Below are positions 1,567 through 51,798 of a stretch of DNA of 59,060 nucleotides, piece after piece. How positions within the stretch are numbered: the stretch's first letter is position 1; each line of letters begins with the position of its first letter. A program made the translations under genes and the position numbers. A model generated the notes under the pieces. The model worked only from the letters and a program-made list of their open reading frames with translations. It did not search any database and had not been told where the DNA came from. The stretch spans positions 1-59,060 of the forward strand of contig JAFLDV010000028.1 in NCBI GenBank assembly GCA_017302255.1. The letters run 5' to 3'. The stretch comes from Gammaproteobacteria bacterium (GTDB taxonomy: Bacteria; Pseudomonadota; Gammaproteobacteria; Enterobacterales; Alteromonadaceae).

Positions 1567-3525
1567 TTAAAAACGAGCTCCTAAATTGAACTTAGCAACT
1601 AATCGCTGTAACTCAGCAGCTAAGCGGGCAAGTTCGGCCGCCATTTCTGCGGTTTGCGAAGCGCCAGAACTCGTTTGCATAGAAACGTCACTAATTCGTG
1701 TGATGTTGATATTAATTTGCTCGGCAACAGTACTTTGTTCCTCGGCAGCAGAGGCAATTTGAGTAGTCCGGTCATGAATAGCATGAACACCGTCAACAAT
1801 AGCTGTCAACAACAAAGCCATTTGTCCCATTTGCTCATTGCCGGAGTTCGCTTTTTCGACGCTAATATTCATCGAATTCACCGATTGCTTTGCGGTATTT
1901 TGGAGATTATCGATCATCCGCCGGATATCGATGGTCGATTGTTGTGTTCTCTGTGCTAAATGACGAACTTCATCCGCTACAACAGCAAATCCTCGACCCT
2001 GCTCTCCTGCTCTTGCTGCTTCAATTGCGGCGTTGAGTGCTAGTAAGTTGGTTTGTTCAGCAACACCTTTAATTACATCGAGCACACTATTTATTTCTTG
2101 AGTGTGCTGATAAAGCGTATCCAGTTGCTCGCCAGTAGTTTGCACTTGCTGTGTTAGATCGGCAATCAACCCCCTAGTTAACTCCAACTGCCGCTGCCCT
2201 GCCGCGGTGCGTTCTTGGATATGGTCAGCTTGCTCTGCGGCTTGAGCTGTACTCATCGCAACGTCGGCGACCGTGGCCGACATTTCATGCATTGCGGTTG
2301 CCGCTTGTTCGGTATCAGATTGTTGCTGACTCACGCCTTGTTTGGTCAATTCAGTTATAGCAGAGGCTTCTTCAGCTGCTGCCGCAACCTGATCAGTTGC
2401 AGAACGAATCTCAAGGAGAACATTATTTAGTTCACCGGTAACTTGATTTAGTCCTGTGGAAAGATGACCAAATTCATCCCTTGTATGAACGTTGCTGCGA
2501 TGGGTCAAATCATGCAGCATCAAATAAGACATCAGGCCATCAATTTCACGAAGAGAATTTCGGATAGCTCTCGAAATGTACACACTTACCCAAAGCACCA
2601 AAGTAATCAAAACTACGAGGACAACACTTATCAACCACATTAGTCGAGTGGAGTCATTCACCATAGTTTCCGAATCATTATTTAAGACTTCTAAAATGTT
2701 ATTTTGGGCATCTCTTAAGCTTGAAATTCGTTTAGTCGCAACTTGAAACCATTGCTGAGGCAGGCCATTAAGTGTCTCGCTAACCTTTGTTTTTTGGATA
2801 GTCTCAATTTGTTGAGAATACCCATTTACATCAATTTCCGAAATTTCTATACGAATATTCTGGGCTTTTAACCATGAAGATTCAGTAACTTCGGTTTTGA
2901 AAATTTGTTGTGCCCCTGAGTTTGCTTGCCAACGGCGCAGTAATTCATCAGACAACTTTTGCTCGGTGAGCAACAAACTTACAATCGCCCTCTCACGGCC
3001 CGCACGCTCTATCCAATTCATTAGCGAGACCAAATTGCTTAAGCCCTGACGTTCATTTAAATCTGAGACTTTATTAACATCCGATTGCAGAGCAGAAATT
3101 AACGTATTAATTTGGTCAGTATAAATTTTGGTGATTTCTGGTAATGTCAAATCAAAGCTATCAATCTTAGGTCGTATATTTTCAATCTCAGCCCAGCTAT
3201 TTGCGTGTTCTGCGACAAGAGCTTTACTTAATTTTTGTCTTGCATCGTCAAGATTACGCCGGGCAAGCTGCATTTCCTCACTAAATTGCGTTCCACGACT
3301 TATCAAAAAGACACCACTTGTACCTCTCTCGGCTTGTATCGCACTGATGTAATTTGACAGTTGTGTCGAATCAATCACTATTTTCTTTACATATTGTGCT
3401 GTTCGAGCTTGTTCAAACAGATCTAGAAGTTGCTGACCTGCTAGTAAAGCAATCAACACCATCGGTAAAAACAATAAAATTGCTAACTTTTTTCCGATCG
3501 AAAAATGTTTTATGAATGTCAACAT
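1567..3525 (-). CDS. Methyl-accepting chemotaxis protein with nitrate/nitrite-sensing NIT domain
   Basis: A 652-residue chemoreceptor. An N-terminal membrane segment (about 14-34) is followed by a periplasmic helical domain with the NIT-family signature around IQAERGTSGVFLIS, a second membrane segment (about 296-318), a HAMP linker and a cytoplasmic signalling domain whose hairpin tip, EQTNLLALNAAIEAARAGE, is intact. NIT domains are known from NasR-type regulators and bind nitrate or nitrite. The ATG at 3525 is preferred over an in-frame GTG at 3531 because AAGGAG lies six bases before it. The gene starts 19 bases after narX and is probably cotranscribed, so nitrate taxis and nitrate-responsive transcription would be linked. 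Ligand identity is inferred from the domain and neighbours. Confidence 0.9.
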   Translation of the reverse strand: MLTFIKHFSIGKKLAILLFLPMVLIALLAGQQLLDLFEQARTAQYVKKIVIDSTQLSNYISAIQAERGTSGVFLISRGTQFSEEMQLARRNLDDARQKLSKALVAEHANSWAEIENIRPKIDSFDLTLPEITKIYTDQINTLISALQSDVNKVSDLNERQGLSNLVSLMNWIERAGRERAIVSLLLTEQKLSDELLRRWQANSGAQQIFKTEVTESSWLKAQNIRIEISEIDVNGYSQQIETIQKTKVSETLNGLPQQWFQVATKRISSLRDAQNNILEVLNNDSETMVNDSTRLMWLISVVLVVLITLVLWVSVYISRAIRNSLREIDGLMSYLMLHDLTHRSNVHTRDEFGHLSTGLNQVTGELNNVLLEIRSATDQVAAAAEEASAITELTKQGVSQQQSDTEQAATAMHEMSATVADVAMSTAQAAEQADHIQERTAAGQRQLELTRGLIADLTQQVQTTGEQLDTLYQHTQEINSVLDVIKGVAEQTNLLALNAAIEAARAGEQGRGFAVVADEVRHLAQRTQQSTIDIRRMIDNLQNTAKQSVNSMNISVEKANSGNEQMGQMALLLTAIVDGVHAIHDRTTQIASAAEEQSTVAEQININITRISDVSMQTSSGASQTAEMAAELARLAAELQRLVAKFNLGARF

Positions 3526-3544
3526 AACCACTCCTTGCGTGTGT

Positions 3545-22747: not shown

Positions 22748-24475
22748 CTATCTTTGAGTACTAAAAAGCCAAATAACCAGCAACAACGTAACGAACCAAA
22801 ATCCGGACATCAGTTGCCAAAATAACAATTTATTGTTTTTTGTAGCCGCGACCACTTGTTGTCGCAAGTATAGAGGATTTGGATTTTGAAGGTCTTTGAC
22901 TAGATGCTCGATTGTGAGATAGCGTTGATGCAGATCAAATGACACGCCTCGCTCTAGTGCTCGGTCAAACCAAAGAGGGATCCGACTATTGCGCTTTGTC
23001 GCACTGACGTATTTCAATTTCTGATAATCAGAAAGTGAACGGCATTCGTCGACTTGCTCACCATAAGGTAAAAACCCAGTGAACAATTCATAAGCAACTG
23101 TCGCGAGTGCATAAACATCTCCTTGCTCTACTGAGTTGTGACCATGTAGATAATGAGGATCTGAGTAACTGGCTGTGCCTAATGCTAGTTCTTGAAGAAT
23201 TGGAGAGTAAATTTCTGCCAAGCCAGGAACGAACACTGAACCGAAATCAACTATTTTCAATTGCCCATCCGCCAGCCTCATAATATTTGCGGGCTTCAAG
23301 TCCTGATGGATCATGCCAAGTTTATGAAATGCATTAAGACCATCCGCAATTTGTTTTACCAACGAAATCGCAATACTTGGACGCAAGGGCTGAGCTTGCT
23401 GAAGCAACCAACAATCTAGTGAGTCTCCTTCCAGATATTCTAATAGATAATATAAAAAGGTTCGTGATCGGCCCTGCTGAATAACTTTAACGACATGGGC
23501 ATCATCAATGCGCAAACCTACCCACTCCTCACGGATAAAACGCTCTAAATAAGCCACGTCATCGGCAAAATTTTGCGAAGGAGTTTTCAAAACATAATTA
23601 GCTTGGTTTAACGAGTCTTTTACTAGGTATAAGTGGCTCCTAGAACTTGCAAACAGCGTTTGCACAACTTCATAACCATCAACCTTATTACCTGCTACTA
23701 AAGCTGGTAGCAAAGGTAAACGAGTCATTCGCTCACTGTATTCATCAAGACTGTCATCGCCTAAGGCTTTAACTTCACACAGAACTAAACTGACGTTGTC
23801 ATCGCTGGCCGTCGCAAGCTCTAAAGCTCGTTCGGATTTGTCCTGAAGCGAAAGTGGTACAGAAAGCAACGCTGCCAATTCTAGATCACTAACAAAATCA
23901 GATAATCCATCCGAACAGAGCAAGAATATATCGCCTACTTCGATTGCGATTGAATCATGCTGCCAACTAACACTTTCATCCATGCCAAGCGCTCGGCCTA
24001 AAAACTGCCGCTGCTCACTTAAACGCATCGTGTGGTCAATTGAAAGTTGGCGAATTGTGCCTTTTCTGAATAAATACAAACGGCTGTCGCCGATATGAAA
24101 CCAATAGGCAGTTCTGGATTTTACAATAAGACCGGTAAATGTGCAGAGATGCCCACGTTCATCAGACTGGTAAGTTCGACTTTGCTGATATAAAGCGGAG
24201 TTTATTGTTGATAAAACTATCCCCGCACTATGTGCTGTCGACCAACTATCAGGGGTTTTGAGATAATCAGTAATAAAATCAGAAGTTGCGCGTTCGCTTG
24301 CCAAAGCACCAGCCTCTGCAGAACTAACACCGTCTGCAAGCGCCAACACACAGCCTTTATAAAGCTGAAGATGAGGATCTGTTGGCATTTGCCAACAGAT
24401 CGCATCTTCATTTGAATCTTTACCACCGGCAATTGTTTTACCGGCGATATCGACCTGTAGCGTGAGTTTATGCAC
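22748..24475 (-). CDS. Tail-anchored PP2C phosphatase / Ser-Thr kinase fusion behind narK
   Basis: A 575-residue bifunctional protein. The PP2C phosphatase domain (about 1-235) has SNEDA, LADGVSSAEAG, CSDGLSDF and SDDNVS metal-site motifs. The Hanks-type kinase (about 265-540) has the ATP lysine in YVLKTPS, catalytic HQDLKPAN and DFG. One hydrophobic segment at the end (about 550-570, FWQLMSGFWFVTLLLVIWLF) would anchor it with both domains in the cytoplasm. It starts with GTG 18 bases after narK. A paralogue lies at 43975-45669 behind the nirC-like channel. Similar genes lie beside nitrate transporter and nirBD genes in Pseudomonas. Control of transporter activity by phosphorylation is inferred. 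Confidence 0.88.
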   Translation of the reverse strand: MHKLTLQVDIAGKTIAGGKDSNEDAICWQMPTDPHLQLYKGCVLALADGVSSAEAGALASERATSDFITDYLKTPDSWSTAHSAGIVLSTINSALYQQSRTYQSDERGHLCTFTGLIVKSRTAYWFHIGDSRLYLFRKGTIRQLSIDHTMRLSEQRQFLGRALGMDESVSWQHDSIAIEVGDIFLLCSDGLSDFVSDLELAALLSVPLSLQDKSERALELATASDDNVSLVLCEVKALGDDSLDEYSERMTRLPLLPALVAGNKVDGYEVVQTLFASSRSHLYLVKDSLNQANYVLKTPSQNFADDVAYLERFIREEWVGLRIDDAHVVKVIQQGRSRTFLYYLLEYLEGDSLDCWLLQQAQPLRPSIAISLVKQIADGLNAFHKLGMIHQDLKPANIMRLADGQLKIVDFGSVFVPGLAEIYSPILQELALGTASYSDPHYLHGHNSVEQGDVYALATVAYELFTGFLPYGEQVDECRSLSDYQKLKYVSATKRNSRIPLWFDRALERGVSFDLHQRYLTIEHLVKDLQNPNPLYLRQQVVAATKNNKLLFWQLMSGFWFVTLLLVIWLFSTQR

Positions 24476-24493: not shown

Positions 24494-25984
24494 TTAACTC
24501 ACATGAATATGGTGAACATTACCATCTTCATCGACTTCAGTGAGATGGCCCTTCGGCTCGTCCAAAAACATCACAGAAACCAAGCCAATTAGCGCAGTAC
24601 CACCAATTACAAAGAAGAAAGTATGATAGTCCACGTAGCTTAAAATGGTTAAATACACCACAGCACCGACATTACCGTAAGCACCTGCCATACCAGCGAT
24701 CTGACCGGTCATCCGACGTTTAATCAGTGGCACTATCGCAAACACCGCACCTTCGCCACCTTGCACAAAGAAACTACAGGCCATACAGATAATAACGGCT
24801 AGAGCAATCGACCACGAGCTATCGATAAAACCCATAAGTAAGTAGCCAGCAGCCAAACCACCAATCAGCAAACCCATACTTTTCCGTCTACCAAATTTAT
24901 CTGAAAACCAGCCACCTAATGGGCGTGATACCAAATTCATAAAGGCGTAACCAGAAGCCAATAGACCAGCTGTTACTGGAGTTAAACTACTAAAAGTATC
25001 CAAGAAAAATAACGGTAACATTGATACTACCGCCAGTTCCGAGCCAAAAGTGGTGAAATAGGCAACATCGAGAATTGCTACTTGTTTGAATGAGTATTTT
25101 TCGTGTGCCGGCACGCCTTTGCGTAAATGTTCGACATTGACGCGCCATACCTGATGAGTTTGCACTACAAACAGAATAACCAAACCCACCCAAGTAGCTT
25201 GCATATAGAACTCAGAGAATAGGTTCACTCCAGCTGGCGACATCTTCCATGCCAGCATTGCAAGTGCTAAATACATTGGGATATTCATGATGATGAGCAA
25301 AAATAGATCACCCCAACTAGTCACTTCCATCGCACCTGATTTTTTTGGTTTGAAGTACACAGATCCTTTTGGTGTGTTGCGGGCATAGTGATAAAAAACC
25401 ACCGAATAGGCCATGCTAAATGCGCCAACCGCTAGCAGCGAATAGCGCCAGCCGTCAACTCCGCCAAACATTAACGCAATGGTTGGTAATGTCATCGCGG
25501 CAGCCGCAGAACCAAAATTCCCCCAGCCACCATAGATACCCTCAGCGGTACCAACTTGATGACTCGGAAACCATTCACTAACTAAACGGATACCAATCAC
25601 GAAACCTGCGCCTACAAATCCTAATAAGAATCGAAACAATGCGAGGGTTTCAAAAGTTTGCGCCAATGCGAAGCCGATACAAAATATCGAAGAGATGAAC
25701 AATAACAACGAATACATAATCCTCGGGCCGAACTTATCGACGAGAATACCGACAACAATTCGCGCAGGGATAGTTAGCGCCACGTTTAAGATCAATAACG
25801 CTTTGATTTGTGCATCCGTCATAGACAATGCTTGTTTAATTTCAAACAGCAAAGGTGCGTGGTTAAACCACATGACAAAGGTTAAGAAAAATGCGAACCA
25901 AGTGAAGTGAAGTGTTTTTATCTTCGGATCGGATATCTGCAGTAAATTTACTTTGCCTTGTTCGGCGTTGACAGGGGTCGCCAT
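24494..25984 (-). CDS. narK: NarK-type nitrate/nitrite transporter (MFS, NNP family)
   Basis: A 496-residue inner-membrane carrier with about 12 hydrophobic segments. The NNP nitrate signatures are visible as [12 protein letters not shown] (about residue 165) and [11 protein letters not shown] (about 435), and substrate arginines in [12 protein letters not shown] and [13 protein letters not shown]. It should exchange nitrate for nitrite or take up nitrate with protons. ATG 25984 is chosen because GGAGGA lies just upstream; an ATG at 25996 would overlap that site. It is first of four genes (narK, phosphatase-kinase, coiled coil, diiron protein) under a perfect FNR box and two NarL-type sites. 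Confidence 0.94.
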
Positions 25985-26022
25985 AATGTCCTCCATAAGG
26001 GCCCGTTGTTATATTTGCCGCT

Positions 26023-33751: not shown

Positions 33752-33849
33752 GCCAAACTAAGCACTCAGATCAATAACATGTTGCGGCGAACAATTTTAA
33801 AATATGGCCATCACGCCGAGCTCTGATGGCTAAACCTATTTAGGCAAGT

Positions 33850-33925
33850 CAGCATAGCCGTGGCATTTTGCCACCGGGCCTGTTTGGAAACGGACAGACC
33901 TCCCCATTGGAAAGGTGTTCTATTT
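33850..33925 (+). ncRNA. Structured leader of moaA, candidate Moco riboswitch
   Basis: The leader holds a stem GTGGCA-TTT-TGCCAC (33860-33874), a second stem CTGTTTG-GAAA-CGGACAG (33880-33897) capped by a GAAA tetraloop, and then ACCTCCCC...AAAGGTG in which ACCT can pair with the AGGT of the moaA ribosome site. A tetraloop hairpin followed by a CCTCCC segment near the start site, in front of moaA, recalls the molybdenum-cofactor RNA motif. A covariance search is needed to prove the family. Confidence 0.5.
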
Positions 33926-34897
33926 ATGTTGCTAGACCAATACCACCGTAGATTTACATACTTGCGTTTGTCTTTGACTGAAAGCTGCAATTTTCGCTGC
34001 AATTATTGCCTGCCAAATGGTAGCGATTGCCAAAATAGAGCTGCAGAGTTAACCGCTGATGAGGTTGTTGCTTTAGTAAAAGGCTTTGCACTTGCCGGCA
34101 CTCGCAAAATTCGGTTAACAGGCGGCGAACCAACTCTCCGTAAAGATCTTTGTGACATCATTTCACGAGTGAAAAGCGTAGATGGCATCGAAAAAGTCGC
34201 AATGACCACTAATGGCTATCGCCTAAAGCGCGATATCGGCGATTGGTTGGCTGCAGGCTTAGACGCCATTAACGTTAGTGTAGATAGTCTAGACCCTGCT
34301 ACTTTTCATCTGGTGACCGGACAAGACCGGCTTCAAGATATTTTGTCGGGTATTGATTTAGCACTTGAACTTGGTTGTCGTCAGGTGAAATTAAACACTG
34401 TGCTATTGAAGCAATACAATGGGCAAGCGCTAAATCAGTTCCTAAATTTCGTGAAAAATCGTGCAATATCATTGCGATTTATTGAACTGATGCAAACTGG
34501 CGATAATCAGTCCTTTTTTAATAAGCAGCACCAAAGTGGCGCGTCAATTCAAGCGCAGTTATTGGCACTTGGTTGGACTCAACTACCAAAACTCGCTGAT
34601 GCTGGTCCGGCTTTAGAATATAGCCATCCTGATTATCACGGAACAATCGGCTTAATTATGCCGTACAGCAAAGACTTTTGTAATAGCTGTAATCGCCTTC
34701 GGGTTTCCAGTCTCGGCGATTTATACCTTTGCTTATTTGCCAGTGAACATCGCAATTTACGTCATCTTCTCACAGGCAATAATCCTGCTGAAATTGCAGA
34801 ATTTGTGCAAAAACAATTGCTGGATAAACCAATCGCTCACTCGCTGCAGCAGGCTCAGACAGGCTTAACAAAACAGCTCGCTATGATTGGCGGTTAA
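33926..34897 (+). CDS. moaA: GTP 3',8-cyclase MoaA
   Basis: A 323-residue radical-SAM enzyme, first in molybdenum-cofactor synthesis. The SAM cluster is in ESCNFRCNYC (C-x3-C-x2-C), the second cluster in FCNSCNRLRVSSLGDLYLCLF, TGGEPTLR is intact, and the conserved C-terminal glycine pair is the end of MIGG. ATG 33926 has AAAGGTG upstream; the longer frame to 33860 runs through the leader hairpins and is rejected. It begins an operon moaA-mobA-moaB-moaC-moaD-moaE-modA-modB-modC with several overlaps. Confidence 0.96.
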   Translation: MLLDQYHRRFTYLRLSLTESCNFRCNYCLPNGSDCQNRAAELTADEVVALVKGFALAGTRKIRLTGGEPTLRKDLCDIISRVKSVDGIEKVAMTTNGYRLKRDIGDWLAAGLDAINVSVDSLDPATFHLVTGQDRLQDILSGIDLALELGCRQVKLNTVLLKQYNGQALNQFLNFVKNRAISLRFIELMQTGDNQSFFNKQHQSGASIQAQLLALGWTQLPKLADAGPALEYSHPDYHGTIGLIMPYSKDFCNSCNRLRVSSLGDLYLCLFASEHRNLRHLLTGNNPAEIAEFVQKQLLDKPIAHSLQQAQTGLTKQLAMIGG

Positions 34898-41541: not shown

Positions 41542-42810
41542 CTATAACAGTAACTTTGAAGCGATCTCCTTAAGGCTCAGCTGCTGATCCATCGACATTT
41601 TTTGCAGCTGATAATGCGCATCTTGCTCGCTAACACCCAGTTCTCGAATTAGATAAGCTTTGGCTTTTTGTATAATTTTCATCTCTTCAATTGCCGTTTG
41701 TGCGATAGCCAATTCGGCCTCAACTTTTGCAATATGCTCTGACTGTTCACGGAGTACACCAAAAAGCGTTTCGCTACCTGCCGAATGCCGCTTAATTAAC
41801 GATTCGTCTTTCGAACTAATTCTCAGTAATGAATCAATATGTTCAGAAGCACCCTGCCGAATCGCTATCTGTTGGGCTTCATAACTTTTTCTTAACACTT
41901 TCAACTCGAACGAAAGTGCGCTGCAAATTGGCTCTGTTAGTTCATGCAATAAATCGATCCGCTCAGATGCAAGTAAAAACCATGTTTCACTCAGAGTTGG
42001 TGCAGCCTGTTTTGTTTCGGTTAGACCTAGAATGATTTGCCTTAATTGCGAAAAATGTCCTGCTTCAAGTTGCGTAAGCTTCTCTTGATAATTCATCGAC
42101 AGATCCGAAGATAAAGTGGACCATAACCCCGAAAATACTTCGATCTGCGATTGTTGTTGAACTTTAAGTTTAGTCCACAAATCAATGTCATTTTTTACGC
42201 CAGCAAGCGCAACAATCCCCCATGCGCGTTCTAACCCGGCAAACTCTTTTGCTTGGAGCAAATAGATTAGCCCTAACATCAAGCGGCTCACTGAAACTGA
42301 GCTCGCAAGACTTGCTGCTTCAATGATTACATCAAGCCACAAATTGATCATTTCCGAATATTGCTCACATGGTGATGTCCGATATTCTTTTAACTCGAGG
42401 CATCCTTGAACCTCAGCCCTCACTGCTAGTAACTTCTCGGTATGAAAAAGCGCTGTAGCTAACGCCATCTTTAATTTTATTGCCGTAATTTCTGCACGAG
42501 TTTGAATAACCAATACTTGTTTATCCATTAGGATCAGCTGACTCAACACATTCTGCTGTACATGAAATAACTTGACGTTAATCGTTTCATCCTGAGAGAG
42601 CATCACTAAATTGCTAAAACCACGTTCTCGTTGCAACAAGTGTAACAACCCTGCGCACTTTAGAAAAAGTTCGATAAGTAAATGCAACTGGCTGAGGTTC
42701 GATATTTCTTGTTTTTTAGCTGACAACATCAGACGAGTAATCAATGAATTCATAGCTTTACACAATTTAAAAAGATTACTTATCACCGCAAAAAACGTTC
42801 CATTACTCAT
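41542..42810 (-). CDS. NIT-ANTAR nitrate-responsive antitermination regulator (NasR-like)
   Basis: A 422-residue cytoplasmic protein. The N-terminal half is a helical NIT domain with LLHLLQRERGFSNLVMLS near residue 60 (nitrate/nitrite sensor), and the last 60 residues are an ANTAR RNA-binding domain, with KAKAYLIRELGVSEQDAHYQLQ and SLKEIASKLL. NasR of Klebsiella has this architecture and, when nitrate binds, stops termination in the leader of the nas operon. The likely targets here are the leaders at 42899-43099 (nirC-like gene, divergent neighbour) and 51849-51951 (nirB), both with terminators. The start is uncertain, with ATG 42753 a possible alternative. No DNA-binding domain is seen. Confidence 0.9.
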   Translation of the reverse strand: MSNGTFFAVISNLFKLCKAMNSLITRLMLSAKKQEISNLSQLHLLIELFLKCAGLLHLLQRERGFSNLVMLSQDETINVKLFHVQQNVLSQLILMDKQVLVIQTRAEITAIKLKMALATALFHTEKLLAVRAEVQGCLELKEYRTSPCEQYSEMINLWLDVIIEAASLASSVSVSRLMLGLIYLLQAKEFAGLERAWGIVALAGVKNDIDLWTKLKVQQQSQIEVFSGLWSTLSSDLSMNYQEKLTQLEAGHFSQLRQIILGLTETKQAAPTLSETWFLLASERIDLLHELTEPICSALSFELKVLRKSYEAQQIAIRQGASEHIDSLLRISSKDESLIKRHSAGSETLFGVLREQSEHIAKVEAELAIAQTAIEEMKIIQKAKAYLIRELGVSEQDAHYQLQKMSMDQQLSLKEIASKLLL

Positions 42811-42948: not shown

Positions 42949-43022
42949 ACAGACTTAATTTATGCATTAAATTCAATACCTTAATTATTTTTTATTTTTG
43001 GCATTAGAAATGCAAACTCAAA

Positions 43023-43099
43023 TTGAGCGCTAGGCTCAACACAGGCATGAATATATTGGACAAAAGCGTCCGCTCCTCGTTTGAGGGCGGACGCTTTTT
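43023..43099 (+). terminator. Leader hairpin and intrinsic terminator before the nirC-like gene
   Basis: A first hairpin TTGAGC-GCTAG-GCTCAA (43023-43039) is followed by a very strong stem, AAAAGCGTCCGC (43062-43073) with GCGGACGCTTTT (43087-43098) and a T-run, ending 31 bases before the start codon. A full terminator inside the leader means that the gene can be expressed only if antitermination occurs. The 319-base gap (42811-43129) contains no other gene. Confidence 0.9.
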
Positions 43100-43129
43100 C
43101 ATTTTGAAAAACAAAAAAGGAAACCCACT

Positions 43130-43972
43130 ATGGCTTATTTAGTACCAGCCGAATTTGTTACCAAGATGGTTGACGCAGGCGAATCAAAAATTTTTATGTC
43201 TACTCGTGACACCCTGATCCGAGCATTTATGGCTGGAGCAATTCTCGCACTTGCTGCCGTGTTCGCTGTGACCGTCTCCGTACAAACAGGCTCACCTTTG
43301 GTTGGCGCTATGCTCTTTCCTGTAGGTTTTATCATGTTGTATCTGATGGGCTTCGACTTATTGACTGGTGTATTTGTACTGACACCGCTGGCATTAATCG
43401 ACAAAAGACCTGGAGTTACTATAAACGGTGTTTTAAGAAACTGGGGCTTAGTCTTTACTGGCAATTTTGCTGGGGCATTGACTGTGGCAGCAATGATGGC
43501 TTTTGTATTTACCATGGGGTTTGATGCTCCTGCAGGCCCTGTTGGTGAAAAGTTGGCTGCTGTCGGGGAAAGCAGAACCGTCGGTTATGCATCCCACGGG
43601 ATCAGCGGTTGGTTTACCATTTTTATGCGTGGCATGCTCTGTAACTGGATGGTCTCAATGGGCGTTGTCGGCGCAATGATTTCGACGCATGTTAGTGGCA
43701 AAGTAATTGCAATGTGGATGCCTATCATGCTGTTTTTTTTCATGGTTTTTGAACATTCTGTTGTCAATATGTTTTTATTCCCATTTGCACTAATGATGGG
43801 CGGTAATTTCTCAGTATTAGATTATTTATTATGGAATGAAATCCCTACTGCTTTGGGGAACTTGGTGGGTGGACTAGCATTTACCGGATTGACTTTGTAC
43901 AGCACCCACTACAAAACTGCTCCAAAACGCGAAATATTAACAAACCCTAGCCACATCAAAAAGGCTGCCTAG
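43130..43972 (+). CDS. FNT-family nitrite (formate/nitrite) transporter, NirC-like
   Basis: A 280-residue inner-membrane channel with six or seven hydrophobic segments. Family features are FPVGFIMLYLMGFDLLTGVF, NWGLVFTGNFAGAL and, centrally, GMLCNWMVSMGV, followed by FEHSVVNMFLFP with the family's conserved histidine. It probably moves nitrite into the cell for NirBD, or out of it. AAGGAAA precedes the ATG. Control is by the leader terminator and the NIT-ANTAR neighbour. The phosphatase-kinase gene starts two bases after its stop, so the two are translationally coupled. Confidence 0.9.
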   Translation: MAYLVPAEFVTKMVDAGESKIFMSTRDTLIRAFMAGAILALAAVFAVTVSVQTGSPLVGAMLFPVGFIMLYLMGFDLLTGVFVLTPLALIDKRPGVTINGVLRNWGLVFTGNFAGALTVAAMMAFVFTMGFDAPAGPVGEKLAAVGESRTVGYASHGISGWFTIFMRGMLCNWMVSMGVVGAMISTHVSGKVIAMWMPIMLFFFMVFEHSVVNMFLFPFALMMGGNFSVLDYLLWNEIPTALGNLVGGLAFTGLTLYSTHYKTAPKREILTNPSHIKKAA

Positions 43973-43974
43973 CG

Positions 43975-45669
43975 GTGAGCTTGAATTTAACTATCGGCCA
44001 ATATTCAGTTATTGGCCGCGCTTCGAAAAATCAGGACTTTGTTGATTACAGTACTGTAAGTAACTCGCTCAGCCAGGAAAAAGGAATTGTTGTTGCAATT
44101 GCAGATGGCATTGGTAGTAGTTTGGTCAGTCAAATTGCCAGTGAAACTGCAGTTCGTAGCTTTATCGTTGATTATTATGCGACAAACTCAGCTTGGTCAG
44201 TTAAACATGCGGGCAACCAAGTACTTCTAGCATGCCATAGCTGGTTACTTCAACAGAACCGGCACCATTCCTACTCGGCCACTCCAGAAAAAGGTTTTTG
44301 TTGCACATTCTCTGCTGTCATCCTACGTGGTAATTTTGCTCATTTATTTCATATTGGCGATACCAGAATTTACCGGTTTGAACATCAGCAATTGAGTCTA
44401 TTGACTCGAGATCATCGTGTTTGGCATGAGCAAAAACACATCCTTTCGCAAGCGTTAGGCGCTCAAGAAAAATTAAACGTCGACTATGACGTAGTCGAAA
44501 TTACTGAAGCTTCTTTATTCGTGTTAGCTACTGATGGACTATTTGAATTTATTCCACTATCTGTCATGACTGAAATGCTCGCAAATATAAACGGGAATAC
44601 AGATTTAAATGATACCGCAAAACAAATGGTTGATTTTGCCTATTCAAATGGCAGCGATGACAATATTTCAATCCAAATAGTCAGAGTTAATAAACTACCA
44701 ACTCACGAATATCGGCCTTGCATTCTTGATACACAGCTACCGTCCCCAGAGCCTATGGAAGTTGGTCATCAGATAGACGGAATGACGGTAAAACAGATTC
44801 TATCCCGAACTACTCGAAGTTATGTTTACCTAATGCAACTTAGTGATGGCTCAAATGCAGTACTAAAAGCTCCATCTCGAGAATTTGCGGCTGATGACCT
44901 TGCGTTAGAACGACTATTGCAAGAGGAATGGATAGCAAACAGAGTTCATAGTGAATTTACTCTAAAGGCTGTTCATTTAAATAAGCAGCGAAGTGTTTTA
45001 TACAGTTTATTTGAATACGTTGATGGACAGTCCTTACAAGAATGGCGTTTTAAGCATCCAAAACCCGAGCTTGAGTCCGTGTTAGAAATCGTCACGCAAA
45101 TTGTAAAGGGTGTGCAAGCTATGCATCGTAGCGAGATACTTCATCAAGATATCCGCCTGACCAACATAATTCTGACAAAGTCCGGTCAAATTAAAATAAT
45201 TGATTTCGGCTCGGCCAAATTAACAGGACTAGATTCGGACATTTCGTTACAAATACCAGGAACAGCACTATTCATGGCGCCAGAATATTTTCTTGGACAA
45301 GCCGGGAGCCATGTATCAGATTTATATTCAGTCGCTGCTGTTTGTTATTTTCTCTTAACAGGGCAATCACCGTATGGTCCAGCGATTGCTCGATGCAAAA
45401 ATATCCAAGCGCAACAGAGACTAAATTATCAACCAATTATTGGCAAAGGTAATGATTGGCCTGAGTGGATTGACTTAGCATTGCAGAAAGCTCTTAACGT
45501 AGACCCAATCAAACGCTATCAACATTTATCTGAATTTATTTACGACCTGCATAAGCCGAATCCAACTTTAGCTCGAGAGCTTTCATTTAACGGAAATAAT
45601 ACAAATCGGTTCTGGCAACTACTCGCGGTATTCGAACTTCTTGTAATTATGTGGCTGTCAGTATTCTAA
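43975..45669 (+). CDS. Tail-anchored PP2C phosphatase / Ser-Thr kinase fusion behind the nirC-like gene
   Basis: A 564-residue paralogue of the protein at 22748-24475. The PP2C domain (about 1-235) has KNQDFVDY, IADGIGSS, ATDGLFEF and GSDDNIS. The kinase (about 260-530) has the ATP lysine in AVLKAPS, HQDIRLTN in the catalytic loop (arginine in place of the usual lysine of DLKPxN, which may weaken catalysis) and IDFGSAK. A final hydrophobic segment (FWQLLAVFELLVIMWLSVF) anchors it. The start is GTG two bases after the transporter stop. It probably adjusts nitrite channel activity or a shared partner. Confidence 0.87.
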   Translation: MSLNLTIGQYSVIGRASKNQDFVDYSTVSNSLSQEKGIVVAIADGIGSSLVSQIASETAVRSFIVDYYATNSAWSVKHAGNQVLLACHSWLLQQNRHHSYSATPEKGFCCTFSAVILRGNFAHLFHIGDTRIYRFEHQQLSLLTRDHRVWHEQKHILSQALGAQEKLNVDYDVVEITEASLFVLATDGLFEFIPLSVMTEMLANINGNTDLNDTAKQMVDFAYSNGSDDNISIQIVRVNKLPTHEYRPCILDTQLPSPEPMEVGHQIDGMTVKQILSRTTRSYVYLMQLSDGSNAVLKAPSREFAADDLALERLLQEEWIANRVHSEFTLKAVHLNKQRSVLYSLFEYVDGQSLQEWRFKHPKPELESVLEIVTQIVKGVQAMHRSEILHQDIRLTNIILTKSGQIKIIDFGSAKLTGLDSDISLQIPGTALFMAPEYFLGQAGSHVSDLYSVAAVCYFLLTGQSPYGPAIARCKNIQAQQRLNYQPIIGKGNDWPEWIDLALQKALNVDPIKRYQHLSEFIYDLHKPNPTLARELSFNGNNTNRFWQLLAVFELLVIMWLSVF

Positions 45670-47867: not shown

Positions 47868-48797
47868 TCAACTGTGATAAGTGAGGGGCAAACTAACGCA
47901 ATTCGGACTCAGTAAGTTAACGTCGATACCCATCGGGTTCTCAATAACATCGCCGATAATAATCAAAGTGGGTCCAGTCATTTGGCGAGGTCCCATTTGA
48001 TGTTGGCGATAGACTTCGACTATAGTTGAGATAGTGGCGCGCAGTTCTTGCTGATCTGGGCTGGACACTCTGTCTAGTAGGGCAATTGGTGTAGTCGATG
48101 GCCAACCTACGCTTTGTAGCCCATTACAGAGTTCCTCTAGACGATTTAGTCCCATATAAACAACTAGAGTGCAAGAGTTTTCTGGACAATATGCGTAATT
48201 GTCCCAAAACGGCTGTTTGTTTTGTTCTGCAAATTGAGCGGTGAAAAACCGCACCGAAGTCGAGATCCCTCTAGCCGTGAGTGGGATGCCGGTATAAGCA
48301 CTCGCAGCACTTGCACTGGTAATGCCGGGAACTATGGCAAAAGGGATATTTGCCTCTTTAAGCGAGCTAGCTTCTTCAGTAACTCGCCCAAATATCGCAG
48401 GGTCGCCACCTTTTAATCGAACGACAACATGGCTTTGACACAGGCTTTCACGGCCATACTCTACAAGGAGTTGGTTGATTTGTGCTTGTGGCATTGCATG
48501 CTGACCAGCTCGTTTGCCGACATAAATTTTGCGAGCTCGACTTCCACATAATTGCAGCACGGAATTGCTTACGAGATTGTCATATAGAACGACGTCAGCA
48601 TCGGCCAATATCCGCGCCGCTTTTACTGTTAGCAGTTCTGGATCACCAGTGCCCGCCCCCACAAGGAAAACTCCTGCATTGGTTTTTTTGGTTTGGGAAT
48701 ACGAAGACCTTTTACCCCAAGAAAAAAAACCGCTTGAGTCCACAGCACGTTGAAGCAGATCCATACTTATTTGATGGACGAAAGTCATAACGTTCAT
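47868..48797 (-). CDS. cobA: Uroporphyrinogen-III C-methyltransferase (CobA/SUMT)
   Basis: A 309-residue enzyme that makes precorrin-2, the first step to siroheme for NirB. The motif VGAGTGDPELLTVKAARIL, LYDNLVS, GKRAGQH, RLKGGDPAIFGR and PGITSA are intact. An N-terminal extension of about 45 residues precedes the fold. ATG 48797 has GGAG six bases upstream. There is no siroheme oxidase/ferrochelatase domain, so CysG- or Met8-type activity must come from elsewhere. It follows nirD by 57 bases. Confidence 0.93.
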   Translation of the reverse strand: MNVMTFVHQISMDLLQRAVDSSGFFSWGKRSSYSQTKKTNAGVFLVGAGTGDPELLTVKAARILADADVVLYDNLVSNSVLQLCGSRARKIYVGKRAGQHAMPQAQINQLLVEYGRESLCQSHVVVRLKGGDPAIFGRVTEEASSLKEANIPFAIVPGITSASAASAYTGIPLTARGISTSVRFFTAQFAEQNKQPFWDNYAYCPENSCTLVVYMGLNRLEELCNGLQSVGWPSTTPIALLDRVSSPDQQELRATISTIVEVYRQHQMGPRQMTGPTLIIIGDVIENPMGIDVNLLSPNCVSLPLTYHS

Positions 48798-48853
48798 TTT
48801 GTTCTCCATATTTGTAATCGGCAAATTGACGTGTCAATCTAATAAACGCGTTC

Positions 48854-49222
48854 CTAAGCAGCGATAGATTCTAAATCCACGGCTTTCTCGCTAATGAACA
48901 CTCGATCACCACGTAGTTCCGTTTTATATACCGCCACAAAGATTTCTGGATGTTGTAGACATTGACCACTGCTTAAACAAAAATGCTGTTTATACAGTGG
49001 TGATGAAACGGTCAAACGATCATCGAAGGAACAGATAATGCCGCGAGAAAGCACGTTTGCACCACCAATTGGATCATAATTATCGATAGCATATATCTCT
49101 CCCAATTCACCAGATTCAGGATGTTTGTCCCAAAATATTGCGACCTGCAAATCACCAACTAATACTCCAACGCCACTATTTTCCACTAAATCATCAAGAC
49201 TACAGATATCAATTAATCTCAT
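48854..49222 (-). CDS. nirD: Nitrite reductase (NADH) small subunit NirD
   Basis: A 122-residue subunit with a Rieske-like fold. The cluster cysteine/histidine pairs are absent, as is normal for NirD. Segments VGDLQVAIFWD, IYAIDNYDPIGGANVLSRG and FVAVYKTELRGDRVFIS match. It overlaps nirB by four bases (ATGA) and has GAGGGG before its start. Confidence 0.93.
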   Translation of the reverse strand: MRLIDICSLDDLVENSGVGVLVGDLQVAIFWDKHPESGELGEIYAIDNYDPIGGANVLSRGIICSFDDRLTVSSPLYKQHFCLSSGQCLQHPEIFVAVYKTELRGDRVFISEKAVDLESIAA

Positions 49223-51798
49223 GCTAAAGTCCCCTCGTTGATGGATATGATTGAAATTTGCTGTTGAAAACCCTGCTTTTCTGCTTGAGTTGCCGGCCTG
49301 ATCTGTGAACGTTCTTCGACAAATAAAATATTTGGGTCAATTTTGTCACTGTTGACAAAATGGCGAAATCTCTTCAAAGCGACAGGATCGTCAAGTACGG
49401 CTTTCCATTCGCAGCGATATGTGCCTACCAGCTTTAACATTTGCTGATCCAACTCGTCACAAATTCCAAGATGGTCTTGTATGACTACAGCTTTCAGATA
49501 ATCTAAACCGCCTTCTAATTTCTCAAGCCAAACGGAGGTTCTGGTTAATCGATCTGCTGTTTTTATGTAAAACATTAAAATGCGGTCGATATATCGAACT
49601 AAAGTTGCGGTATCTAAATCCGTTGCAAACAAATCTGCATGTCTTGGACGCATTCCTCCGTTGCCTCCGACATACAAATTCCAGCCTTTTTCAGTGGCTA
49701 TCACACCAATATCTTTGCTTTGAGCTTCAGCGCATTCACGTGTACAGCCCGATACTGCCATTTTGATTTTATGAGGGGAGCGTACGCCTTTATATCGATC
49801 TTCAATAGCAATAGCTTGGCCGACGCTATCTTGCACGCCATACCGACACCAGGTGCTACCGACACAGGATTTTACAGTTCTGAGCGATTTGCCATAAGCA
49901 TGTCCGGTCTCAAAGCCGGCGTCGATAAGTAACTGCCATATTTGCGGTAATTGCTCCAAGCGCGCACCAAACAAATCAATTCGTTGGCCACCAGTAATTT
50001 TGCAATACAAGTTAAATTGCTTTGCAATTTGACCAATGACTATTAATTTTTCCGGAGTAATTTCGCCGCCAGCGATCCGAGGAACTATTGAATACGAACC
50101 GTCTTTTTGCATATTCGCTAAAAAAGTATCGTTAGTGTCTTGCAGTCCTACGTGTGATTTTTTTAACACGAACTCGTTGTGAACTGATGCGAGCAGTGAT
50201 GCAACTGTCGGTTTGCAAATCTCACATCCATGCCCTTTGCCATGCTTGGTAATGAGCTGGTAAAAGTTTGTTATACCTTCAACTTGAATTAGGTGTAATA
50301 GTGATTGCCTTGAATGGGCAAAATGCTCACATAAATGATTATTAACATTAACTCCCCGACTTCTTAATTCATCATCAAGCACCGACTTCAGAAGTGCGCT
50401 GCAGCCACCACAACCCGTTGCAGCCTTTGTACAGGACTTGATACTTGCGAGATCGCAGATCCCTGTGTCTATAGCGCCAATAATGTCTGATTTCGCTACG
50501 TTATGACATGAACAAATAGTCGCACTGTCAGGTAACCTGAATTCAGCGGCTTTCTCACCAGTTTGGGTTGGAAGAATTAATTGCTCTGGCTGTGCTGGCA
50601 GTGGAATGTCGTTGAGTACATACTGCAATAGCGTATCGTAGTTACTTGTATCACCGACTAACACTGCCCCAAGCAGTTTCTTGCCATTTGCACTAACTAC
50701 TAATTTTTTATAATTACCAAGTTTCGGATCTGTATAAACATAACTTAACGCGCCGTCGGTTTTGCCGTGAGCATCGCCAATCGAACCGACTTCTACTCCG
50801 AGTAATTTTAATTTGGTGCTCATATCAGCACCAAAAAAACGAAGTTTTGATTTACTATCCACTAGGTTATCAGCAAGCACTCGCGCCATTTGATACCCAG
50901 GGGCAACTAGACCAAATATTCTGTTCTGCCATAAGGCACATTCACCGATTGCAAAGATATTATTGTCAGAGGTTTGGCAAGCATCATCAATCACAATGCC
51001 ACCTCTAGCACCAACATTTAAGCCAGCCGCTTTTGCGAGTTGGTCATAAGGCCGGATCCCAGCCGAAAACAAGACCAGATCTGCATCTAGGCTAGTACCA
51101 TCGGAAAATTGCAGTTTATATCGATTACGGTCGCCATTAATAATCGCTTGTGTCGATTTTGCCGTATGTACCGTCAAGCCGAGCTTTTCAATTTTGCGAG
51201 CAAGTAACTCTCCAGCAGCGCTATCGAGTTGAACAGCCATTAGCTGAGGCGCGAATTCCACGACATGAGTGGTCAAGCCAAGTTGCTCTAAAGCATTTGC
51301 CGCTTCAAGTCCCAACAAACCGCCACCGATGACTACTCCGACTTCACTGGTTTTAGCACTTTGCTCAATAGCTTTTAAGTCCTCTAAGGTTCGATAAACC
51401 AAACAATTCGGTTGTTCATTCCCCGGAATTGGCGGCACAAATGGATAGGAGCCTGTTGCTAAAACCAGGTGGTCATATTTGAAAATTCGACCATCGCGAC
51501 AGAAGACTTGCTTTGACTCTGGCTCAATTTTGTCAACCCAGCAGTCGAGTTCAAGCCTTACGTTATTGATTTGATACCATTCTTCAGTCGATAGGGCGAG
51601 TTCCGCCATTGGCGTACCACTGAAGTATGAAGATAAATACACTCGATCATAAGCAACATGCTTTTCACCACACAATACGGTAACGCTAAGCACATCGCTT
51701 CGCTGCCGAAGCTGTTCGATAAAATGGTGCCCCACCATGCCATTACCAATAACGAGTACATTTGATTTCACAGCATCGCTTTCGTCTACTAATTGCAT
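49219..51798 (-). CDS. nirB: Nitrite reductase (NADH) large subunit NirB
   Basis: An 859-residue cytoplasmic enzyme that reduces nitrite to ammonium. Domains in order: FAD/NADH binding (about 1-330; VIGNGMVGHHF and GGGLLGLEAANALE), BFD-like [2Fe-2S] motif near 430-480 (CSCHNVAKSD, CTKAATGCGGC), a further C-x2-C (HGCEICKP), and the siroheme/[4Fe-4S] part with SCVGSTWCRYG and SGCTRECAEAQSKD. It is complete compared with E. coli NirB (847). The operon nirB-nirD-cobA has an intrinsic terminator in its leader, suggesting nitrate-dependent antitermination. Confidence 0.96.
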   Translation of the reverse strand: MQLVDESDAVKSNVLVIGNGMVGHHFIEQLRQRSDVLSVTVLCGEKHVAYDRVYLSSYFSGTPMAELALSTEEWYQINNVRLELDCWVDKIEPESKQVFCRDGRIFKYDHLVLATGSYPFVPPIPGNEQPNCLVYRTLEDLKAIEQSAKTSEVGVVIGGGLLGLEAANALEQLGLTTHVVEFAPQLMAVQLDSAAGELLARKIEKLGLTVHTAKSTQAIINGDRNRYKLQFSDGTSLDADLVLFSAGIRPYDQLAKAAGLNVGARGGIVIDDACQTSDNNIFAIGECALWQNRIFGLVAPGYQMARVLADNLVDSKSKLRFFGADMSTKLKLLGVEVGSIGDAHGKTDGALSYVYTDPKLGNYKKLVVSANGKKLLGAVLVGDTSNYDTLLQYVLNDIPLPAQPEQLILPTQTGEKAAEFRLPDSATICSCHNVAKSDIIGAIDTGICDLASIKSCTKAATGCGGCSALLKSVLDDELRSRGVNVNNHLCEHFAHSRQSLLHLIQVEGITNFYQLITKHGKGHGCEICKPTVASLLASVHNEFVLKKSHVGLQDTNDTFLANMQKDGSYSIVPRIAGGEITPEKLIVIGQIAKQFNLYCKITGGQRIDLFGARLEQLPQIWQLLIDAGFETGHAYGKSLRTVKSCVGSTWCRYGVQDSVGQAIAIEDRYKGVRSPHKIKMAVSGCTRECAEAQSKDIGVIATEKGWNLYVGGNGGMRPRHADLFATDLDTATLVRYIDRILMFYIKTADRLTRTSVWLEKLEGGLDYLKAVVIQDHLGICDELDQQMLKLVGTYRCEWKAVLDDPVALKRFRHFVNSDKIDPNILFVEERSQIRPATQAEKQGFQQQISIISINEGTLA

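Follow-up and report, generated by a model that had tools for sequence, protein, structure and literature searches.

The window analyzed here, a 59,060-nucleotide stretch of an Alteromonadaceae genome (assembly GCA_017302255.1, contig JAFLDV010000028.1), carries a gene for a tail-anchored fusion of a PP2C phosphatase and a Ser/Thr protein kinase, located directly downstream of a gene for an FNT-family channel. Most members of this fusion family are encoded behind transporter genes of two unrelated folds, MFS and FNT, and the double pairing is the result of one partner swap, from MFS to FNT. The FNT-linked copies form a single clade, which is marked by an arginine in the catalytic loop of the kinase. 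Comparison of these sequences suggests, with the balance about even, that the fusion may be dedicated to controlling, at the post-translational level, the channel whose gene precedes its own.

The FNT gene (43130..43972, + strand; 280 aa, stop codon TAG) and the fusion gene (43975..45669, + strand; 564 aa, GTG start at 43975) are separated by two bases on the same strand. The channel protein contains the PF01226 domain (1.2e-63; 215 bits vs. a gathering score of 34.6). The original prediction called it nirC-like, which is right for the FNT family but not for NirC proper: the NirC equivalog scores 36.6 bits against a cut-off of 293, FocA is the best equivalog at 121.5, and all equivalogs remain below their cut-offs. 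The nearest solved relative by sequence is LCIA (9v2a). In the fusion, Pfam places PP2C_2 at aa 11-191 (7e-17) and Pkinase at aa 284-515 (3e-30). Thus, a PP2C domain precedes a Hanks-type kinase in one chain, which is the architecture of the PpkB-type bifunctional proteins. The PP2C domain (43975..44694, + strand; aa 1-240) contains Asp 21, 44, 129, 187, and 229, which we take to be the metal ligands. The kinase domain (44770..45555, + strand; aa 266-527) contains K298, E317, D392, N397, and D410 and lacks the glycine-rich loop; in its catalytic loop HQDIRLTN (45142..45165, + strand; aa 390-397) R394 replaces the lysine. A predicted transmembrane helix (45601..45663, + strand; aa 543-563) forms the C-terminal tail anchor, past which the protein continues for one or two residues only. 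The structure model (mean pLDDT 91.5, pTM 0.87) consists of two compact domains and this final helix. Foldseek matches the first domain to the cyanobacterial PP2C tPphA (2j82; 4.3e-16) and the second one to PknB (3oro; 8.9e-17).

A paralogous fusion with lysine in the catalytic loop (22748..24475, − strand; 575 aa) is 33% identical to the first one over nearly the full length. It follows, at a spacing of 18 nt, a gene for a NarK-family MFS protein (24494..25996, − strand; TIGR00886 above the cut-off). The arrangement that had been proposed, one fusion two bases behind a channel gene and its paralog behind narK, with the same kind of tail-anchored protein paired with two unrelated transporter folds, is therefore present in the window. 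No other full-length copies were found in the genome, where two further matches are pieces of kinases.

The family is widespread. A single-protein search (E ≤ 1e-30) yielded matches in 23 of 40 genomes drawn from relatives, the window's own included. In genomes of the class, a profile built from 20 members found it at 146 places, spread over 123 of 369 genomes (E ≤ 1e-80); most of these matches are full length, and some are truncated at contig ends. In a phylum-wide draw that overlaps the other draws in some genomes, 99 of 299 genomes gave matches (E ≤ 1e-60). In plasmid records the protein is usually annotated as "bifunctional protein-serine/threonine kinase/phosphatase." Eight of the 146 places in the class draw, short or cut fragments and the one in genome G310, were left out, and 167 distinct fusions were taken from the fetched stretches; by construction of the search, both domains are fused in every one of them. 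A myxococcal locus (L035), one of three from a protein scan of named genomes, was rejected as a different kinase.

The predicted excess of transporter neighbors is borne out by the counts. After exclusion of eight fusions whose contig ends no more than about 400 nt upstream of them, 138 of the 159 assessable fusions are located downstream of a same-strand MFS or FNT gene. HMM scoring detected 136 of these within 1.5 kb (95 MFS and 41 FNT), to which two fusions with an MFS gene directly upstream (L185 and L116) were added; the scoring had missed them because the open reading frame ran upstream into the MFS gene. The spacing is within 150 nt in 124 of the 136 scored pairs (median 35.5 nt), and in three FNT-linked cases a cyanase gene is located between the FNT gene and the fusion. 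Two other fusions (L114 and L122) have a divergent FNT gene opposite. Twelve of the FNT and eight of the MFS cases come from the genus of the window and are therefore not independent. The other neighbors include nirB, nirD, nitrate-reductase-type molybdopterin oxidoreductase, cyanase, molybdenum cofactor (Moco) genes, and nitrate-type ABC transporter genes; neighbor clusters c5 and c11 were dropped as gene names, being mixed or without a family. The original prediction saw here a system for transporter control in general. This is too wide, since the partners found are NarK/NasA-type MFS proteins together with a single FNT subfamily, encoded in loci for nitrate/nitrite and in some cases for cyanase.

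The same pairing is observed when counted from the transporter side. In the class draw, 77 of 94 NarK-type MFS genes are followed by a same-strand fusion within 1 kb; one is close to a fusion in another orientation, and 16 have no fusion within 1 kb, at least six of these, including the one in G162, lying near a contig end. Among FNT genes of this subfamily (≥60% identity) 26 of 39 are followed by a fusion and two are divergent to one, vs. none of nine other FNT genes (<45% identity), a weak control because only two of the nine occur in genomes holding a fusion. The unit is also found on plasmids: among 12 plasmid stretches with gene tables, FNT is directly upstream of the fusion in eight and NarK in two, while in the other two the fusion lies at the first bases of the record (Sulfitobacter) or has no upstream same-strand transporter (Shewanella). 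In a thirteenth stretch, lacking a gene table, FNT was found by HMM. The 17-kb small mobilizable Psychrobacter plasmid pA17P2 (L295), available as a whole, carries FNT, fusion, and cyanase genes among 13 listed genes, the others being replication and mobilization genes, mscL, a recombinase, a restriction system, and two hypotheticals; nirB, nasC, and a nitrogen regulator are absent from this list. A cyanase gene is found near 17 of the 167 fusions, and therefore the FNT channel might also carry cyanate.

In the FastTree phylogeny of the 167 fusions, for which only local support is available and 46 of 164 inner branches are weak, all 43 FNT-linked copies, including the two divergent ones, fall into one clade of 45 members with support 100. 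This clade is nested inside the MFS-linked branches; its two other members have no transporter (L153) or lie at a contig end (L087). The FNT and MFS labels require one change on the tree, or 14 changes if "none" is treated as a third state. Long branches are seen for L179 in the FNT clade and for several copies in the deep part. Thus, the pairing with two transporter families is one MFS-to-FNT partner swap, after which the FNT pairing was held across the clade. The repeated pairing on which the original prediction was based is a single event on this tree, and many independent pairings are rejected because the labels change only once.

The catalytic residues are conserved on both sides of the swap. 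K298, E317, H390, D392, N397, and D410, together with the five PP2C aspartates, are retained in 43 FNT-linked and 97 MFS-linked fusions, one D21E being the sole exception among these 140. Several catalytic residues are lost in three fusions only (L180, L189, and L199), none of them transporter-linked. Two of these, L180 and L189 (genomes G402 and G309), are sister copies in which active-site residues of both kinase and phosphatase are lost; neither has an adjacent transporter gene. The C-terminal transmembrane helix is present in 166 of 167 fusions, the exception being truncated by a contig end.

Fixed residue differences separate the two clades in the kinase as well as in the PP2C domain. Position 394 is Arg in 41 of 43 FNT-linked and Lys in 96 of 97 MFS-linked fusions (29/31 and 88/89, respectively, without the genus of the window). 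Hence the loop arginine, from which the original prediction derived a possible difference in phosphatase and kinase balance between the copies, is real but is no quirk of this copy; by sequence it is a marker of the FNT-linked clade. It also occurs in five fusions without label or transporter, two of which belong to the FNT clade. Outside the tree, 29 further fusions remained after exclusion of three duplicates from 32; this set consists of top-scoring or plasmid loci, with ten from one family, and leans to the FNT side. It gave Arg in 24/24 FNT-linked and Lys in 2/2 MFS-linked copies, and Arg, Arg, and Lys in three without a detected partner, one of which, from Ideonella, is FNT-linked by annotation. 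Arginine at this loop position is also found in Src-type tyrosine kinases, from which we draw no conclusion. Position 303 is Asn in 84/84 MFS-linked fusions, the deep clade of 26 members, listed by hand from the tree, being excluded from this group, and Asp (34), Glu (8), or Thr (1) in FNT-linked ones.

The transporters themselves were compared as well. The FNT protein is 84–90% identical in 11 loci of the same genus, vs. 49–58% for its kinase fusion. On the MFS side, a conserved C-terminal tail, EEPxGxxxExxPDG(T/S/N)VxxIxV, was found in 88 of 95 kinase-linked proteins; the other seven have a different tail, and their fusions belong to the deep clade. In the NarK of the window the tail (24497..24559, − strand; aa 480-500) is a predicted beta-hairpin, modeled by AlphaFold between aa 483 and 499 at a modest confidence of about 65. 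Of fifteen NarK proteins first taken as unlinked, seven were excluded: two lay near contig ends, two came from G162 and G103, one was a linked copy, and two were pieces of a broken gene. Eight remained for comparison. G103 has a fusion at 1.5 kb and is also counted among the 95; G162, first scored as having no fusion, has the tail, and a fusion fragment was then found directly behind its narK gene at the contig end. Five of the eight have no intact tail (G250, G350, G109, G200, and G402). In G250 and G350, which belong to one genus, the tail has decayed, and the nested position of these proteins among NarK proteins that have both the tail and a linked fusion carries starred support; neither a fusion nor a PP2C_2 domain was found in the two genomes. 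No full-length fusion was found in G109, whose genome is 78% complete, and the fusions of G200 and G402 belong to other partners or to none. A NarK tail that is conserved in most linked proteins and has decayed in one nested lineage without the kinase hints at a physical partnership.

A possible mechanism can be outlined as follows. The anchor in the last helix would keep both enzyme domains at the cytosolic side of the membrane and close to the channel, where kinase and phosphatase would add or remove phosphate at cytosolic residues of the channel. In the case of NarK, the C-terminal tail would be the docking or target site. Uptake could then be closed when nitrogen is ample or nitrite toxic, and subsequently reopened. 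A broader and more tentative reading, to which we give clearly less than an even chance, is that of a bacterial protein family whose members, kinase and phosphatase in one, are dedicated to transporters. In this reading, the NarK beta-hairpin may have evolved as the module for docking and control, and the move from MFS to FNT may have rewired both enzyme domains (K394R, N303D/E, and a three-residue insertion in PP2C) to recognize an unrelated fold.

A number of observations weigh against the proposed control of the channel. The activity of the kinase is uncertain because a Ser/Arg loop (aa 272-287; 44788-44835, + strand) replaces the glycine-rich loop, as it does in most of the family: the three aligned glycine positions contain no Gly in 148 of the 167 fusions and one in 19. 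Active kinases rarely show such a replacement. The FNT partners show no tail or Ser/Thr specific to linked proteins in a residue-by-residue comparison of 41 linked with four unlinked ones, and the C-termini of seven unlinked FNT proteins, three of them also in that comparison, point to no kinase-linked tail in FNT. The Ser/Thr residues that are conserved are common to unlinked FNT of the subfamily; therefore a linked-specific phosphosite was dropped as a candidate and we name no target site. In NarK, the Thr/Ser position of the tail is T or S in 78 of 88 proteins but Asn in the window's own copy; as a phospho-acceptor it is no more than a candidate. Three of the eight unlinked NarK proteins retain the tail (G375, G287, and G283, each from a genome that contains a fusion), and loss of tail together with kinase amounts to one clear lineage, not many. 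Nineteen of the 167 fusions have no transporter ahead, and 11 of the 39 subfamily FNT genes have no fusion nearby, although two of these are halves of one broken gene. Finally, fixed differences between clades also arise by descent, any pair of clades should show some of them, and positions such as 303 were chosen after the split was known.

The best-surviving alternative, although we consider it unlikely, is that the fusion is co-expressed with the uptake genes but acts on NirB/NirD, on the NIT-ANTAR or NasT regulator, or on a PII-type protein, the transporter being a mere operon neighbor. Within four genes of the 167 fusions, many of whose stretches are clipped, nirB is found at 56, nirD at 35, and an ANTAR gene at seven; some loci have AmtB and PII genes next to them, and the 19 fusions without an adjacent transporter fit this explanation as well. 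However, the gene immediately upstream is a same-strand MFS or FNT gene in 124 of 167 cases and nirB in one. Moreover, FNT-fusion units occur with no listed nirB on plasmid stretches, whose gene tables are incomplete, and on one whole plasmid, and the NarK tail tracks the kinase.

Another explanation that we hold improbable, and rank next, retains the channel as the partner but changes the chemistry: kinase and PP2C would act on each other in an autophosphorylation cycle, and the fusion would gate the channel by binding, not by phosphorylation. The tail anchor, the fused domains, and the lack of a linked-specific Ser/Thr in FNT agree with such self-sensing, and so does a NarK tail that resembles a docking beta-hairpin and whose Thr is not universal. 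The intact active sites fit this cycle and phosphorylation of a substrate equally, and nothing separates the two.

Transcription of the FNT operon is probably regulated as well. Its leader contains a sigma-54-like −24/−12 element (42999..43013, + strand) of the form GG-N10-GC, the sigma-54 consensus, followed by a hairpin GGAC(AAAAGC)GTCC with an ANTAR-target-like hexaloop (43058..43071, + strand), which overlaps the 5′ arm of a terminator-like hairpin with a T-run (43062..43099, + strand); the whole stretch 42960-43130 folds with a z-score of −3.59. A NIT + ANTAR nitrate/nitrite sensor of the antiterminator type (41542..42810, − strand; PF08376 and PF03861) is divergent to the operon. NasR-type attenuation involves two hexaloop hairpins before or in a terminator, with A at loop position 1 and G at position 4. 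In the leader of the window's FNT gene, one hexaloop hairpin overlaps the terminator; its loop has A at position 4, and there is no clear first hairpin. Each of the other 16 FNT leaders that contain the hairpin has G at position 4. Rfam gave no match in the FNT leader. The sigma-54-like element was found in 21 of 41 FNT leaders (0.5 expected) and the hexaloop hairpin ahead of a T-run in 17 of 41, 12 of these from the genus of the window, vs. 0.04 expected from first-order shuffles, an expectation that flatters the pattern because the loop pattern was set after viewing the leaders. The five hairpin leaders outside the genus contribute two altered stems, GAGC/GCTC and AAGC/GCTT, with pairing kept. 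Given the NIT-ANTAR gene and the leader elements, the operon is therefore probably expressed when nitrogen is limiting, nitrate or nitrite serving as the releasing signal; on top of this, the fusion would provide post-translational control. Such co-regulation by nitrate could by itself account for the adjacency, which would then have no mechanistic meaning, and descent alone could account for the clade-fixed residues, but we regard this explanation as very improbable in view of the reverse counts (26/39 subfamily FNT and 77/94 NarK-type MFS vs. 0/9 in the weak distant-FNT control), the tail decay that accompanies absence of the kinase, and the retention of the pair across the clade after the swap.

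The nitrite reduction genes of the locus, a cobA-type methylase gene, nirD, and nirB, occupy 47868..51798 (− strand). Rfam gave a single match in the whole window, a Moco riboswitch (33802-33933, + strand; 85 bits) located where a moaA-type gene begins. Close to the narG cluster, a methyl-accepting chemotaxis protein with a nitrate/nitrite-sensing NIT domain (1567-3531, − strand) is a possible nitrate taxis receptor.

In several members of the Pseudomonadota, measurements have shown that ammonium rapidly controls nitrate uptake, by a mechanism that to our knowledge is not known. Under the broader and more tentative reading outlined above, the fusion would be a missing rapid switch for nitrate/nitrite uptake in this phylum. 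This candidate occurs in one third of the class genomes sampled; its partner is fixed, an active-site residue marks its clade, and the transporter tail offers a target for mutation. If one enzyme family did exchange an MFS carrier for an FNT channel as its partner, this would be a clean case of rewiring of kinase specificity.

Parts of this picture are already in print. A PP2C-kinase fusion was first reported in Pseudomonas, and the class was called uncharacterized (PMC1262709, 2005). The cluster nasST-nasA-ppkB-nasDEC-cobA is described for Pseudomonas sp. UW4 in a section that offers transporter phosphorylation in Arabidopsis and Hansenula as an analogy and cites NprI-Ynt1 (Hansenula) and CIPK8 (Arabidopsis) beside ppkB (PMC3596284, 2013). 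Thus, the idea of transporter control on the MFS side is already in print as a hint. In P. aeruginosa, PA1783 (nasA), PA1782 (ppkB), and PA1781 (nirB) are listed side by side (PMC6954232), and PA1782 is named as one of three Ser/Thr kinases (PMC8560001). That some PP2C proteins contain kinase domains is mentioned in passing in PMC12088040; a term search of the available text of this paper and of PMC6213207 returned neither nitrate nor nitrite. Our searches of the open-licence PMC literature found no report of the FNT-linked fusion, the single swap, the clade-marking residues, or the NarK tail.

Among known systems, the channel of the window resembles FocA, NirC, and NAR1/LCIA in having a full-length FNT domain. 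Unlike FocA and NirC, it falls below both equivalog cut-offs and belongs to a subfamily of its own, mostly with a kinase partner. The fusion and the eukaryotic nitrate-transporter kinases NprI (acting with Ynt1) and CIPK8 are alike in the idea of kinase control of nitrate transport or response, but have only the general protein-kinase fold in common; we know of no fused phosphatase in NprI or CIPK8. In the PknB/StkP systems, kinase and phosphatase (Stp/PstP) are two proteins, and PASTA sensor domains lie outside the cell. The fusion shares the kinase and PP2C folds with them according to Foldseek; in contrast to them, it is one tail-anchored chain with one or two residues outside and without the glycine-rich loop. 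The closest likeness is to the PpkB/PA1782 type of Pseudomonas (nasA-ppkB-nirB), in which PP2C is likewise N-terminal to the kinase and the gene stands beside a transporter gene in a nitrate-assimilation cluster, a likeness that refers to the published architecture and gene order and not to the PA1782 sequence. The fusion of the window differs in following an FNT instead of an MFS gene, in the catalytic-loop arginine, and in forming a clade of its own. Because this FNT-linked clade is nested among MFS-linked members, the copy in the window is best described as a variant branch of the PpkB type.

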